DNA from: Trametes villosa
Lineage: Eukaryota; Basidiomycota; Agaricomycetes; Polyporales; Polyporaceae
Length of the DNA: 64,000 nucleotides
NCBI GenBank assembly: GCA_002964805.2
Contig: PUDQ02000003.1
Location: forward strand, 248,001-312,000
Direction: 5' to 3'
Position numbers and translations under genes: made by a program. Below, one piece after another: positions 22,201 through 38,685 of this stretch (position 1 is the stretch's first letter; each line of letters opens with the position of its first letter). The notes under the pieces were generated by a model, which searched no databases, was not told where the DNA came from, and saw only the letters and a list, made by a program, of their open reading frames with translations.

Positions 22201-24156
22201 TCAGCGACCCGCGCAACTCCCGTGGGCAAAAACATCCGCACTCACCTGAATCCCATCCCCACCTTCGCTCTCCTTCTCGACCTCACTCATCTCGACCTCC
22301 TCGACCACGAGCGCCGGCGGCTTCTCCATCTCCGCCTCCGCCTCCGCCTCCTTCAACCCCGCCCTGAACGGATCCACACTGTACTCCGTCTCGTCGCGCC
22401 ACTCCCACGCGTACGCGCCGCCCAGCGAATCGAGCGAGTCCGAGGGCGACGCCTCGGCCGCGGTGCTCGGGCCGGAGGACGGCGCGGGGACGGTGATGCT
22501 GAGCGTGGTGGTGAGCGTCGCGCCGAGGTTGCCGACGATCGTCGACGAGATGCCCTGGAACCGGACGTCGGAGAGGTGCAGCGTCGTGTCCGCCTCGCGC
22601 CCGCCGTGGCCCGCGAAGTAGATCCCGCGCAGGTCGAGCATGAAGCGCGAGAGGAAGATGACGGTGATGCTGGGAGGGGGCGTCAGCGCGTGCGGGACGT
22701 CATTTGAAGGGGTGGGGCGTACACTTGATCGAAGTAGGGCCAGACGAGCCAGATTGTGAGCGACTGACGGAGATGTTAGCTTAGACACTGTTCAGTCTTT
22801 GGCTGAACGTACGTTGCCAATCTGGAGAGAAGGCGTCAGACTAGGGGTATGGGTGCTATAGCGAGGCTGCACGTACCTTGTTCGAAACAATCGTGATGAT
22901 CTGGATGATGAGCAGGATCCTTCACCAAATGACGCTCAGCTTGAGAGCGAATACATCGAAAACGAAGGAGCGTACAGGAAGTAAGCCGTGCCTACAATAC
23001 GGAAGCGTTCAGAAAGCGAGCCCGATAACAGTCAAACCGCGACCACTCACCATCGCGCAGAAGCAATGTCGTCAGCGGGGTGTTCATGCCGATCTTCCTC
23101 GAGTCTTTGCTTATACCGAATGTTTTGATCCATGTCAGCGCGATGAGGATGCTGTCAGCCGCAATCGTCGCTGCCTTCGCCGTGATAGAAACTGGAAGTG
23201 GAATATATTAGTATCCTCAGAGGTTCCGAGATCGGCGCGTGCGTACTGCTGGAATGACGAGGGAGACATCAGCACCCAGCACGCACTAAGGTTAGGAGGG
23301 GAGACTCACTTTGACAATACGGGGTCGGGAAGGAGATAGAGGTATGTACATCCAAACGGCGGGCCGGCTTGCAACGGGATGTAGTGGGCATTCTCATACT
23401 GAACGTGCGATTGTTTAGTGGACGCTCCGTGAGCAGTACGATTGCAAACTTACCATTACAACAATGGGCTTCACCAGGCTCAGAGGGAGCACGACGAGGA
23501 GAGGCTTCCAATCTCTCCCCCATACACCGTAAACCCGCAGCGTCGTGAATGCTACATCGCCAGATAGTTCAGCATGGTCGCGGGTTTGAGGTTTGAACGC
23601 CGCTTACCTGATACAGAAAGGTAGTTGATGAAAAGTAGTACGTCGTCGGTATGGGTGATCCCCCCACAGCTACATATACTGTGAGTCCGGCTCGCGCGTA
23701 AGAAGCGTAATCCCTCACGTCTAGAGGAGCGAGCACAGTGTCAGCGAAAGGAAATCCCACCAATAGGAGAGGTTTGCTTACCCGATCACTAGACTTCCAT
23801 ACGAGGACTTCGAGCACGAAGAATATCCTCTCGATGACGGCGACATATCTCATCATGAGATAGATCAACGTCGCCCCAGTGAACTTGCGATTCCATATCC
23901 TGCGGTACTCGTCCGGAAACGTCAACGCGAAATCGAACCAGAGCAGCGCTGCAGCGACTACGGCGTCAGTACCTCTCTAATCCCGCGAAAGTGATTTATG
24001 TGTGCCTACCCGACGACGCTATGATGCAATAGTTCTCGACCAGCCTGCAGAGATGGCAGCGTCAGTGTTTCCGATAATGAAAGCTTGACGATGCCCTACG
24101 TACAGCCGAGGGTAGGCGCCGATGATCTCCTGCTCGTACTCCGAAAGTCCGGACAT
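22201..24156 (-). CDS. DUF6533-type seven-TM protein, array copy A
   Basis: Fourteen exons close in frame to 411 residues: 24156-24104, 24044-24010, 23957-23782, 23720-23719, 23669-23608, 23551-23454, 23398-23310, 23248-23247, 23191-23051, 22991-22976, 22919-22877, 22821-22813, 22763-22723, 22669-22201. Two exons are 2 nt long (AC completing Thr; CA between Asn and Ile) and one is 9 nt (Ile-Gly-Asn). The N-terminus YEQEIIGAYPRL leads to ENYCIIASS, then LLWFDFALTFPDEYRRIW, KFTGATLIYLMMRY, DDVLLFINYLSVS, VYGVWGRDWKPLLVVLPLSL, AATIAADSILIALTW, FLILLIIQIITIVSN and WLVWPYFDQVITVIFLSRFM, about seven membrane helices. An acidic cytosolic tail ends in VSADVFAHGSCAGR, also seen in copy C. The family has no known function. 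A TATA-like box lies about 110 bp upstream. Confidence 0.87.
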
Positions 24157-25265: not shown

Positions 25266-27072
25266 CTACGCACTCAGCATACCCGTCCTGAACGGATCTT
25301 CACAATACTGTATCCCATCTACCCGCCCGGATTGAGATGTGCCGCCAACATGATCGGGGGATGTAGGAAGACCGCCTCCATCGTCTTCGTAGGCGTCCTC
25401 CTCGTACGGGAGATCGAGCGTGGCGCCGAGGTTGCCGACGACCAACGAAAACTTGAGCTCAGACCAGTGCATCGTCGACCCGTCATCGTGCCCACCGGTA
25501 TCGGCAAAGTACAACTCGCGGAGGTTGAGCATGAACCGAGAGTGGAAGATGATGGCGAGCCTAGGGGAAGGTAGATGAGCGTGATGAGAAAGACACCCCG
25601 CGGGGGCACGCCGCGCGTAACAGAAAGCTGGGACGTACACTGATGCGAAGTAGGATACACACGGGGCCATGTATAACTGATGTCAAGTGAGTCGCGGTGT
25701 GGTAACACTCTGGCATCACACGTACGGTAAACACACTTGTCTGTTGACGCCGAGCTCAGCGCACGACACCGAGGAGATTATCGAGGAAACACCGTACTGG
25801 ATTATAGGCTACGCGGAACAGGCTCATGGCGAGCAGTGTTCTGTTCAAGAAAGCCTTCAAAACGCATTTTAGGGTCGTGATTGACCCACTCACAAGAAGT
25901 AAGCCGTTCCTATCAAAATGCCTGTACTTAGCAAGACAACCTTAGGCTAAAGGCGTAGGACTGACCATCTCGTAAGACCAGCGTGGCCACCGGTGCGCGA
26001 AGGCCTGACCCAAACGAGGTTCGGACAACGCTGAACGTCTTGATCCACGTCAAGACGATGAGGACGCTGTCTGCAACAATAGTTGCAATTGTGGTGACAG
26101 GAGCAACTGACGTGGAGAAGCTCAGACATGCTAGGGTGGCATGACTGAGGGTGCTCTTACCCCTGTTTAGGATGAAAGCTCAACAACCTGGCGTTCACTG
26201 ACCCTGTAAAGAATAGGCTCACTTGGTTGTGAAGTCATATGGCCACTCGTAACTGTACGAGCATCCAAGTTGAAAGGGACTGCCAAGTTCCATTGCGTAA
26301 TACTTGGAATCCTCGATCTGGAGACGTGTTAGGATAATTGGTGGGACTCAGACGTCGCCATCGATCTCACCAGAATCGTGAGAGGCCTAGCCAAGCTCAG
26401 GGGTAGGATGAGCAGAAGAGGCCTCCAGCCTCTGCCCCAAACACCATACAGTCGCAGCGCGGTAAACGCTGCATTGCCTAAGATGATCATCCGATATAAG
26501 CATAGACAGGGCGATTTCACTCACCTGAAAGCGCGACATAACTCACGAGAAGCAGCGCGTCGTCGGTATGTAGGATCCCACCGCATCTAGGAAGCTCGTG
26601 AATATTCTGCGAACTGACGTTTGAATAGCCCGTACGTCTGAAATCGCGAGTTAGCCGTCAAATCTTAGGGTTGAAACGAAGTTCAAGCGGACTCGCCTGA
26701 TCGCTCGATTTCCATTCGAGCACCTCTAGGACAAGGAAGATCCTCTCAAGGACTGCGCTGTAACGCATGGCAACGTATACCAACGTTGCCCCGGTGAACT
26801 TTCGCTTCCAAATCCGACGGTACTCGCTGGGCGCTGTCAATACAAAGTCGTACCACAGCAGGGCTTCGGGGCAGCCCTCAGCAATGGTCTCGTCCCCACA
26901 AGGATTGAGGAATGAAGCTTACCCGACGATGTCACGACACAGTACTTTGTGATTAACCTAACGAGCATGAGTTAGGCTTGCGCTGTCGGGACTAGGAAAG
27001 CTGAAAAGCCTTGACTTACATAGCTGAGAAATGCGAGACGATCTCCTGCGCATAAGAGAATTCATCTGACAT
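25266..27072 (-). CDS. DUF6533-type seven-TM protein, array copy B (divergent)
   Basis: Exons 27072-27020, 26957-26923, 26863-26697, 26637-26636, 26586-26525, 26477-26371, 26317-26223, 26162-26161, 26106-25966, 25909-25894, 25840-25798, 25740-25726, 25676-25639 and 25560-25266 close to 356 residues. Exon order, phases and several exact lengths (53, 35, 62, 141, 16, 43) equal those of copy A although the protein is clearly diverged. Both 2-nt exons are kept (AC; GG). Conserved parts are YDFVLTAPSEYRRIWKRKFTG, CGGILHTDDALLLVSYVAL, VYGVWGRG-like LYGVWGRGW, and ADSVLIVLTWIKTF. The third intron has a GC donor (CAG/GCGAGT). The acidic C-terminal tail is shorter, ending EDPFRTGMLSA. It lacks the upstream block of A, C and D, so it split off earlier. 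Confidence 0.8.
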
Positions 27073-32907: not shown

Positions 32908-34957
32908 ATGTCGCATCTTTCGGATTACGAACAGGAGGTCTTCGCCGCCTACCCTCAGCTGTACGTAGAGCATCGTCCGGAGTTCCATTTGCAGAAGCAC
33001 GCTAACGCTATCACTTCTGTAGGTTGTTCGAGAACTACTGCATCATCGCTTCATCGAGTATGCGTGCGCAATTCTATTTTGCGAAATCCGAAATACTGAG
33101 GCTGTGGCCCATGCAGCGCTCCTCTGGTACGACCTCGTGTTGACGTTCCCAGACGAGTATCTCAGAATATGGCGTCGCAAGTTCACGGGCGCGACGTTGA
33201 TCTACCTCCTGATGCGATACGCTGCGGCGATCGAAAGGATATTTTTTGGTAGAAGCGCATGTATTGCCAAGTGCTACAGTGGTCCCCATAGGGGCTTGTC
33301 GTGCTACACTTTTAGGCGCGCTGGCGATCGAAAGGATATTCTTCGTGCTCGAGGTGTTCGTGTGGAATTCTAGTGATCGGGTGAGCAATTCCCGTTTCTC
33401 GGCAGCGTTTCTTTCGCTGACATTAGACGCGTCGCTCTGAGCGTACGGCCTTGAGCTTAATCTCTGTGGGCTAGGCTCACAATCGGTGTAGGTGCGACGG
33501 GATCACCCATACCGACGACATACTACTTTTCATCAGCTACCTATCTATGTCAGGTAAGCGGTTTTCGAGCTTCACGCTCGCGGACATGCTCAACCAGCTG
33601 GTGATATAGCATTCACGACACTGCGAGTATACGGTGTGTGGGGGAGAGATTGGAAGCCTCTCCTCGTCGTGCTCCCTCTCAGCCTGGTAAAGCCTCTGGT
33701 TGTCATGGTAAGCCTGCGACCATGATGCGCACGGAACGTCCACTGAATGATCGCACGCTCAGTACGAGAATGCCCACTACATCCCGTTGCAAGCCGGGCC
33801 GCCCTTTGGCTGTACATACATCGTTCTCCTCCCCGAATCCACGGTGTCGAAGTAAGATTCCCTCCTTGTCTTCGTGCGCACCTGGCACTGATGTCCGCCT
33901 CGAGCATTCAGCAGTACGCATGCGCCGATCTCGGCACCTTTGAGCATACTAACAAACTTTACCTCCAGTTTCAACTACAGCGAAGGCAGCAACAATTGCG
34001 GCTGAGAGCATCCTCATAGCGCTGACATGGATACGAACGTTCGGTATCAGTAGGGAATCTAAGAAGATCGGTATGAACACCCCAGTGGCGACGCTGCTTC
34101 TGCGCGATGGTGAGTGACCGCTATGTCACGAGTCGTTGATGGGTCCGCTTTCTAAAAACGTGGTAGGCACCGTCTACTTCCTGTACGCTCTCTCGTGTCC
34201 GGTATGTTCGGGCACAGGCTGAACGGGGTCGGGGACAGGATTGTGCTCATTAGTCAAATACTCACAATTGTTTTGAACCAGGTATGTGTCGCCGCCCCGC
34301 TATCGCACTCGTGACCCAAGAGATGACATGTTTCCACTAGATTGGCCACGTATGCGTCGCAGCCTACTCAGCGGTATCATATCTGAACCTCTCTCCAGTC
34401 TCTCACGATCTGGCTCGTCTGGCCTTACTTCGATCAAGTGTACGCCCCCTCCATCCATCCAAGTGACCTCCCGCGTCCGCTAACGTCTGCTCCCAAGCAT
34501 CACCATCATCCTCCCCTCGCGCTTCATGCTCGACCTTCGCGGGATCTATTTCGCGGGCCGCGATGGGCGCGAGGCGGATACGACACTGCACCTTTCCGAC
34601 GTGCACTTCGAGGACTTCTCCTCGACCATCGTCGGCAATCTTGGCGCGACGCTCAACACGGCGCTCAGCATCGCCGTCCCCGCGCCGTCCTCTGACCCGA
34701 GCACGGAGGCCGAGACGTGGCCTTCGGACTTGCTCGACTCGCAGGGCGGGGCGTATGCGTGGGAGTGGCGCGACGAGATGGAGTACAGCGAAGATCCCTT
34801 CAGGGCGGGGTTGAAGGGGCCCGAGCGGGAGAAGCCGCCAGCGCTCGTGGCTGAGAAGCCCGAGACGGTCGGGATGCGTGAGCTCAAGAAGCAGAGCAGG
34901 GATGGGATTCCGGTGAGCTCGGTTGCTTTTCGCCCTGAAGGTTGCGCAGGTCGTTGA
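32908..34957 (+). CDS. DUF6533-type seven-TM protein, array copy C
   Basis: Exons 32908-32960, 33023-33057, 33117-33248, 33316-33380, 33427-33428, 33492-33553, 33610-33707, 33763-33851, 33912-33913, 33969-34109, 34167-34182, 34239-34281, 34341-34349, 34399-34439 and 34498-34957 close to 415 residues. It is closest to copy A, including the tail (FMLDLRGIYFAG, AYAWEWRDE, EDPFRAGLK, ending in CAGR). Oddities: exon 3 carries a 97-bp insertion. If its GT-AG part (33249-33315) is spliced out, the frame stays open and IERIFF is duplicated. The first 2-nt exon is followed by GC instead of GT. If either junction fails the protein is truncated after the second helix, so this copy may be a young pseudogene. 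Confidence 0.68.
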
Positions 34958-36652: not shown

Positions 36653-38685
36653 ATGTCGGGCGCTTCACAATACGCGCAGACAATCATCGACGACTACCCT
36701 AGGTTGTATGTAACCACCTTCTCACTTTCCACTTGGTACAAGAGGCCGACGCTCTGAGTCGCGCAGGCTGCTTGAAAACTACTGCATCGTAGCATCGTCG
36801 GGTACGCAGTCCTCGATTTTGCTTACATCCACGAGGAGTTGCTCAGAATCTCCATCCCTCCAGCGCTCCTCTGGTTTGACTTTGCGTTGACGTTGCCAGA
36901 CGAGTTGCGCAGGATCTGGAAATACAAGGACCCTAAACTTTCAGTCGGACCAACGCGGAAAGGGGATTACAAGCGCTCCGGACCAGCGATATGGCTCCTA
37001 ATGCGATACGTCGCGGTCGTCGAGAGGGTATTCTTTGTGCTCGAAGTTCTTGTGTGGAATTCGAGTGATAAAGTGAGCGGTCCCGGGCACTATGAGGTAT
37101 AATTTGAGCTAATGCCAGGTTCTCTGCTTCAGACGTACGACTTTGCACTTAGGCTTTCCTTCGTACGTTCTCACTGGTTCGTTGGGTAGATGCGGCGGTA
37201 TCACCCATACCGATGACGTGCTACTCTTTATCAACTACCTGTCAGTATCAGGTGAGCTGTTGTTTCGCCTGAAGCAGTCGTTCCTTGCAACGGCGCTTAT
37301 ACGATCTGGCCACACAGCGTTCACCACCATACGAGTGGATAGCGTACTACGAGGACGTAGTGTCTGGAAAGATCGTCGGATGCCTGTCCTGCTCGTTCTC
37401 CTCCTCAGCGTGGTAAAACCCGTGGTCGTCATGGTTAGTCCGTGCCCACAGCGAGGATGGAACAATATGAACAAATCTCATTTTGCTGGTATGTAGTATG
37501 AAAACACCCACTATACCCCCGTACAAGCCGGGCCGCCGTTCGGCTGCACCTACATCTGGACCCTCCCTGACCCTCTAATCTCCAAGTGAGTTTTTCCATA
37601 CTCATCGTCGCTCATGGTTAACATCTACCCTGCAAACGCAGCCGTACGCACTCACCCACTCAGCATCGATATGAGAATTGATCAAACCCGTCTTCAGTTT
37701 CGATCGTAGCAAAGGCGACAACCATAGCGGCAGAAGCCATCCTCATTGTGTTGACTTGGATGAAAACGTTCGGTACATCTCGAGGCTTACAAGGCTACAT
37801 ATTGCAAGCCCAGGGTGTTTCGGCGATGCTCATGCGCGACGGTGAGTGTTCACGGTGTCTGTATTTTGGTCTCAATTCTGAACGCGCCAATACAACAGGC
37901 ACGGCCTACTTCCTGTACGCTTATGTGTTTTGATATGCTTGCTCTCTTCATTAACTCCCCTGAAAGGATTCTGCTCGTGATCCAGATCATTACTATCACC
38001 TCTAACCAGGTATGGGCGACCACGTTACTCGACCAGCCCCCTCAGAGCTGACACCGTTACACAGATCGGCCACGTACGTGGCGCCACCAATTGTGTGGTA
38101 CCGTAGCTAACGTCCCTCGGACCAGTCCCTCCCAATCTGGCTCGTGTGGCCCTATTTCGAACAAGTGTACGCGCCGCCTCCCGGATCAGAGCAAGGTGTC
38201 GCGTGTGCTGACATCTGCTCGCCAGCCTCACCGTCATCCTTTTGTCGCGCTGTGTGCTGCGCCTGCGCGAGGGCGACCAGCCCCACGACGAGGACCTCGA
38301 CGGCCCCCCGCCCGAAATTCCGGACTTCAAACTCCCGAGCATCATTTCGGCGACGGTCGAGAATGTCGACGACACGCCTGCTACGACGCCCACCGTCTCT
38401 GTCCCTACACCCTCTTCTGCGTCCGGCCCGAACACGAACGCCGGGGCGTCGCCCACGGGCTCCTTTGACTCGTCAGAAAGGACGTGCATGTCGGAGGGGC
38501 GCGATGAGTCGCACGCGTATTGCGGCGATCCGTTCAGGCCGGGGATGCGGAATTCGGAGCGCGAAAACCTGCCAGGGGCGCGCATGATCGAGGAGGTGGA
38601 GATGCACTGTGACCATGAAACGGAGACGGGAGACATTCGGGTGAGCGCGGTCGTGTTCTATCCAGAGACCGGCGCAAGTCGCTGA
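36653..38685 (+). CDS. DUF6533-type seven-TM protein, array copy D
   Basis: Exons 36653-36705, 36767-36801, 36864-37072, 37133-37134, 37190-37251, 37318-37433, 37497-37585, 37642-37643, 37698-37841, 37899-37914, 37967-38009, 38065-38073, 38126-38166 and 38226-38685 close to 426 residues. It shares the family order (ENYCIVASSG, LLWFDFALTLPDELRRIW, CGGITHTDDVLLFINYLSVS, AGPPFGCTYIW, AAEAILIVLTWMKTF, WLVWPYFEQV) and the final VSAVVFYPETGASR. Both 2-nt exons (AC; CC) have GTACG donors. Relative to copy A, exon 3 has about 11 extra codons replacing RKFTGAT, and exon 6 has six extra codons. Both changes keep the frame and alter loops or helix edges. Function unknown. Confidence 0.8.

Follow-up and report, generated by a model that had tools for sequence, protein, structure and literature searches.

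How is the reading frame carried across an interval when the exons on its two sides are out of phase? The question is raised by four genes, here called A–D, in the window, the 64,000-nt stretch of Trametes villosa DNA that we analysed. In all four, exon 7 ends in phase 2 (TCAAA in A, ACCAA in B, TCGAA in C, and TCCAA in D), and the next large exon starts with TT and needs phase 1 (TTTCTA, TTGCTC, TTTCAA, and TTTCGA, respectively). A sequence-only reading had proposed that a 2-nt exon joins the two. Read on the strand of each gene, the dinucleotides CA, GG, CA, and CC were found where it had placed them, preceded by AG and followed by GTACGC (A, C, and D) or GTAAGA (B). The gene models have the following coding spans.

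22201..24156, minus strand: coding span of gene A, 14 exons and 408 aa; the 3′ end was read through to the first stop, and a further 3′ intron is possible
25266..27072, minus strand: coding span of gene B
32908..34957, plus strand: coding span of gene C
36653..38685, plus strand: coding span of gene D

Genes A–D are members of the large fungal DUF6533 (PF20151) membrane-protein family. The gene A protein scored 48.2 bits against the Pfam profile (E = 1.2e-12), relative to a curated cut-off of 24.1. In the genome-wide profile search, genes A, B, and C were above the cut-off. Exon 3 of gene D, which an insertion interrupts (36864–37072, plus strand; 209 nt versus 167, with 42 nt inserted in frame within the DUF6533 region), scored 22.2, below 24.1. 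A simple hydropathy scan yielded six segments in D and seven in each of the other three genes, with some overlap among the seven. The family is called basidiomycete-specific in the report on the Coprinopsis protein SNB1, a DUF6533 member for which seven transmembrane helices are predicted and which is described there as required for fruiting-body patterning (PMC10949477).

The gene models place these features around the candidate exon 8.

23310..23398, minus strand: gene A exon 7, 89 nt, ending in phase 2
23249..23309, minus strand: gene A intron 7a, 61 nt, GTGAGT to CAG, with a branch-point-like CTGAT
23247..23248, minus strand: gene A exon 8, 2 nt, CA, in the context AG-CA-GTACGC, leading from phase 2 to phase 1
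23192..23246, minus strand: gene A intron 7b, 55 nt, GTACGC to CAG, with a branch-point-like CTAAT
23051..23191, minus strand: gene A exon 9, 141 nt, starting with TT
26163..26222, minus strand: gene B intron 7a, 60 nt
26161..26162, minus strand: gene B exon 8, 2 nt, GG, in the context AG-GG-GTAAGA
26107..26160, minus strand: gene B intron 7b, 54 nt
33852..33911, plus strand: gene C intron 7a, 60 nt
33912..33913, plus strand: gene C 2-nt exon, CA, in the context AG-CA-GTACGC
33914..33968, plus strand: gene C intron 7b, 55 nt
37586..37641, plus strand: gene D intron 7a, 56 nt
37642..37643, plus strand: gene D exon 8, 2 nt, CC, in the context AG-CC-GTACGC
37644..37697, plus strand: gene D intron 7b, 54 nt

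The phase mismatch, the spacing of exactly two bases, and the presence of two introns of normal length rather than one of double length all support the 2-nt exon. Canonical AG and GT adjoin it, and a complete intron lies on each side. The exon is required for the reading frame: when it was omitted, a stop followed 12 codons after the junction in A and in C, 65 codons after it in B, and 66 in D. Its bases form the third base of codon 169 and the first base of codon 170 of gene A and are thus under little coding constraint. In every one of the four genes, the two affected codons were located at, or a few residues from, the point where a hydrophobic segment begins. We consider it very probable that genes A–D carry here a genuine coding exon of 2 nt that is used constitutively.

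One ordinary intron with other in-frame ends would make the tiny exon unnecessary. Genes A and C do carry a suitable GT (GGAT-GTACAT or GGCT-GTACAT), which is in phase 1 and would join in frame to TT with the loss of about 14 residues. However, B and D have GC instead of GT at this site, and the stretch that would be dropped is kept across the family. Forbidding tiny exons reduced the blinded alignment score (described below) by 49.5 (A), 12.9 (B), 28.1 (C), and 41.5 (D), values that refer to both tiny exons of each gene jointly, and a frameshift arose in A, C, and D. We regard the single-intron explanation as very improbable.

The gene models ran from ATG to stop with zero internal stops in all four cases, with both 2-nt exons and exon 12 (9, 15, 9, and 9 nt in A–D) included. 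The claim that all four frames close was thereby borne out, with one GC donor in B (GCGAGT, after exon 3) and, in C, a GC donor together with an extra intron. The introns were 46–78 nt long, and all were GT–AG save these two GC donors. The extra intron needed to close the frame of gene C is putative; it lies within exon 3 (33249–33315, plus strand, 67 nt). A short repeated piece surrounds it in this exon (33117–33380, plus strand). Gene C may be losing its function, as its exon 3 is irregular and a weak GC donor (GCGTCG) follows its exon 4 (33427–33434, plus strand, for exon and donor). Two further small exons of the gene A model are listed here.

22976..22991, minus strand: gene A exon 10, 16 nt
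22813..22821, minus strand: gene A exon 12, 9 nt

The 16-nt exon 10 was present in 75 of the 84 family models described below, which marks DUF6533 as a family rich in small exons.

To follow the exon through the family, we used the whole genome (46.7 Mb in 140 contigs), and all the evidence comes from the sequence of this one genome. Gene A as the query matched 63 places; for the Pfam profile there were 133 matches, 123 of them above the cut-off. The survey set comprised 84 sequences, namely A–D and 80 further loci; 50 of the 133 profile matches lie outside this set. The DUF6533 genes were clustered on contigs C65, C81, C5, C1, and C33, most densely on C65 at about 215–405 kb, which points to tandem expansion. 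No relative was found when viral contigs were scanned with the exon 3 alignment.

Gene structures were obtained with our own protein-to-DNA spliced alignment, in which tiny exons were allowed but received no bonus. The intron costs were arbitrary, and the two settings used agreed. The profile was built from first-pass alignments and zeroed at the codons touching both tiny exons, so that the alignment was blinded to them. As a control, the inside of the composite intron was shuffled with dinucleotides kept, twice for each of the 69 loci at which exon 8 had been called.

The blinded alignment placed exon 8 at the same position and phase in 69 of the 84 sequences. At the lower intron penalty the count was 72, including all of the 69. 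Of the 138 runs on shuffled introns, 10 at the first penalty and 12 at the lower one gave a 2-nt exon. Hand inspection added gene B, L056, L094, and L044, of which L044 had only its downstream side modelled, resulting in 76 of 84. For gene B, the blinded profile favoured another parse at both penalties, and the parse guided by gene A took the 2-nt exon. Two sets of apparent losses were discarded: the absence of exon 8 in L056, L086, and L094, where it was present on inspection or at the lower penalty, and the loss of intron 7a in L100, a misparse that read AG-AT-GT at the lower penalty.

The AG-N2-GT arrangement with both introns at least 40 nt long was found in 69/69 composite introns, as compared with 7.9 expected from the shuffles, a count that is conditional because the loci were chosen for the use of a 2-nt exon by the alignment. 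The shuffle test and the strict motif YAG-NN-GTRNG, present in 62/69 versus 0.6 expected, are fairer measures. Spacings of 5, 8, and 11 bases between AG and GT occurred at 5, 5, and 8 of the 69 loci (7.7, 7.1, and 6.7 expected). A spacing of 6 was raised (53 of the 69), which we put down to donors reading GTNNGT. The flanking introns measured 49–95 nt before and 48–68 nt after exon 8 at these loci, and the other introns of the family had a median of 59 nt. Strict branch points were found in 45/69 and 35/69, relative to 52% elsewhere, rates that are not independent since the acceptor scores rewarded the branch-point motif.

Four copies by themselves carry little weight, since three of them (A, C, and D) are closely related and fall in one clade with a support of 0.99; the independent support for the predicted exon 8 comes from the distant paralogues. 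The median pairwise protein identity among the 69 loci was 29% (2346 pairs), so exon 8 is common to long-diverged copies. The earlier observation is confirmed and reaches further than had been claimed, beyond the four genes. The bases themselves varied, with 14 different dinucleotides among the 69 loci, and the donor GT with G at +5 was kept in 69/69. These counts bear out the earlier suggestion that selection acts on splicing and not on the bases. The codon-170 residue was hydrophobic in 64/69, and random bases would give 87% hydrophobic residues and 0.5% stops; the bases therefore add little coding evidence. Skipping exon 8 led to a stop inside the modelled exons in 48/69, and none was found there in the other 21.

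This conservation also bears on the idea that the genes are decayed copies whose frame needs no repair. The irregular exon 3 of gene C and the weak donor after its exon 4 would fit decay, as would the paralogue models L064, L105, and L108, which needed a frameshift. Against it stand the open frames of A–D from ATG to stop, their regular splice sites but for the two GC donors, and exon 8 itself in 76 of 84 sequences. We give this explanation a vanishingly small probability.

The composite intron might instead be excised whole with no bases left, either as a stwintron or through a zero-length recursive splice site. The two adjoining introns resemble both of these arrangements, and stepwise removal is expected in all three cases. 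Whole excision, however, would leave exons 7 and 9 out of phase, and the zero-length site AGGT showed no excess (6/69 versus 6.6 expected). This reading appears extremely improbable, and we retained the 2-nt exon.

Eight of the 84 sequences were left without an exon 8 call. L038, L089, L103, and L088 have a single intron; L078 gave no firm parse; and for L063, L068, and L092 the alignment of this region was missing or doubtful. The single introns measured 63 and 64 nt in L038 and L089 (phases 2/2), 110 nt in L103 (phases 0/0), and 45 nt in the hand model of L088 (phases 2/2), where the program had read through the intron. Their phases agree, and no tiny exon is needed. AGNNGT was absent from all four of these introns on inspection, which is informative for the 110-nt intron of L103 only, the other three being too short for two introns. 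This fits an ultra-short exon that becomes part of a longer one when an intron beside it is missing.

A ribosome that shifts frame after exons 7 and 9 have been joined directly would likewise restore the frame. Such a shift would leave unexplained both the recurrence of AGNNGT at this position among distant paralogues and the agreeing phases of the single introns in the four relatives. We assign it next to no probability, and the 2-nt exon remains our explanation of the mismatch.

In a tree of 81 sequences, L038, L089, L078, L088, and L063 formed one clade (support 0.88), and L103 was separate. When L063 was excluded, the other four were grouped with a support of 0.98. The midpoint root, in a tree containing no outgroup, was located outside the exon-less clade, and A–D were on the same side of it as this clade. 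The birth of exon 8 by intron gain was considered and is not borne out by this tree, given the position of the root. Exon 8 owes its existence to two introns spaced two bases from each other. The second intron (7b) may have been gained ahead of the main radiation, or it may have been lost in the single-intron relatives; if the midpoint root is right, one loss would be simpler than two gains.

The same genes hold another 2-nt exon, exon 4, further upstream.

23719..23720, minus strand: gene A exon 4, 2 nt, AC, in the context TAG-AC-GTGAGG
26636..26637, minus strand: gene B other 2-nt exon, AC, from the gene model and guided alignment
33427..33428, plus strand: gene C other 2-nt exon, AC, followed by the weak GC donor GCGTCG; hand model, the alignment programs having chosen otherwise
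37133..37134, plus strand: gene D other 2-nt exon, AC, from the gene model and guided alignment

The blinded alignment found exon 4 about as often as exon 8, in 67 or 68 of the 84 sequences, depending on the intron penalty. Hand models added L038, L089, L078, L088, and L041, all with AG-NN-GT and a GT donor upstream. In the hand model of L105, the upstream donor reads ATGAGT where relatives have GT, and the alignment needed a frameshift there. The upstream intron is absent from L034, L042, and L103, and the two bases close exon 3, encoding G, S, and G, respectively. A merged exon 4 in L073 was rejected, as the locus has AG-AG-GTGCGC. The hand models of exon 4 in L053 and L094 contained no AG acceptor, and the L053 model had a stop inside.

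The bases of exon 4 look coding. The codon that they begin specified Ser, Thr, Gly, or Ala in 63/67, as compared with 28% for random intronic pairs, with kinship uncorrected. L058 has TC where most have AG and encodes the same serine; the hand-added L038, L089, and L078 have Arg at this codon. A link with the next donor was also seen. With AG as exon 4, that donor kept G at +5 in 27/53, and with other bases in 14/14 (p = 4e-4, kinship uncorrected). This suggests that exon 4 may supply positions −2 and −1 of the next donor to U1. The other introns preceded by G speak against it: they kept the +5 G in 266/278, i.e., without such relaxation.

As for how so short an exon could be spliced, the spliceosome would recognise each short intron as a unit, pairing its two ends by intron definition, and no minimum exon length would then apply. 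With only two bases between them, U1 bound to the donor and U2AF bound to the AG would hardly fit together, so the two introns would be removed in turn. A comparable proposal, with intron definition and one intron removed after the other, exists for the 1-nt exon of Arabidopsis APC11 (PMC4674806).

Ultra-short exons as a kind are already known. The 1-nt exon of Fusarium CYP621A was presented as the first such exon from a fungal gene (PMC12940212). The two cases share the fungal setting, an exon flanked by AG and GT that resolves a phase mismatch, a composite intron of double length (139 nt in CYP621A), a related gene without the introns as a control, and conservation of the exon, there across orthologues (PMC12940212). 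CYP621A, an ascomycete gene, is described as having one such exon of 1 nt per gene, with the same base throughout 20 orthologues in many species and with RNA reads (PMC12940212). The DUF6533 exons, in contrast, are 2 nt long, occur twice per gene, vary in their bases, and are known from sequence alone in dozens of paralogues of one genome.

In plants, 1-nt exons are known in APC11 and VPS55, which are likewise described as conserved ultra-short exons missed by annotation (PMC4674806, PMC8831610). APC11 relatives without the introns hold the base in a longer exon, as in the merged DUF6533 cases (PMC4674806, PMC8831610). APC11 and VPS55 are single genes conserved across plants and are documented by RT-PCR and RNA-seq (PMC4674806, PMC8831610), whereas the DUF6533 exons belong to an expanded family in one genome. 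Exons of 2–5 bp are reported in Arabidopsis, Drosophila, and human (PMC12940212), and the DUF6533 exons fall within this size. Ascomycete stwintrons, too, consist of two adjoining introns removed in turn; there, a splice element of the outer intron is interrupted by the inner one, and no base is kept in the mRNA (PMC8469720, PMC12403724). The two DUF6533 bases, in contrast, stay. In the literature searched, mostly titles and abstracts, we found among the matches listed no 2-nt exons in fungi, no report on DUF6533 gene structure, and none on tiny exons in this family. A family-wide pair of 2-nt exons was not met in the matches listed.

Combining these results, we tentatively propose a broader picture, which is possible, though we lean against all of its parts holding together. 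Nearly every DUF6533 gene would contain two obligate two-step AG-NN-GT units, in which the exon 4 bases would serve as donor positions −2 and −1 and the exon 8 bases would be free, with G kept at +5. The units would form a natural variant series, the gene tree would record exon gain and loss, and partial skipping could serve as a frame switch. If this is true, the family offers ready-made natural variants for studying the exon size limit and the splicing order, and its tree records how tiny exons rise and vanish as an intron two bases from another is gained or lost. Partial skipping could then switch the frame of DUF6533 membrane proteins.

Few genes are known to have exons this short, of one or two bases, and here a single genome has two of them in over sixty divergent genes. 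Since the bases vary and some relatives have no intron on one side, the smallest exon size, the order of splicing, and the gain and loss of exons become testable by comparison. Automatic models of DUF6533 genes may contain errors at both of these sites in many genomes. Such mis-annotation would touch the family of SNB1, a gene of fruiting-body patterning.
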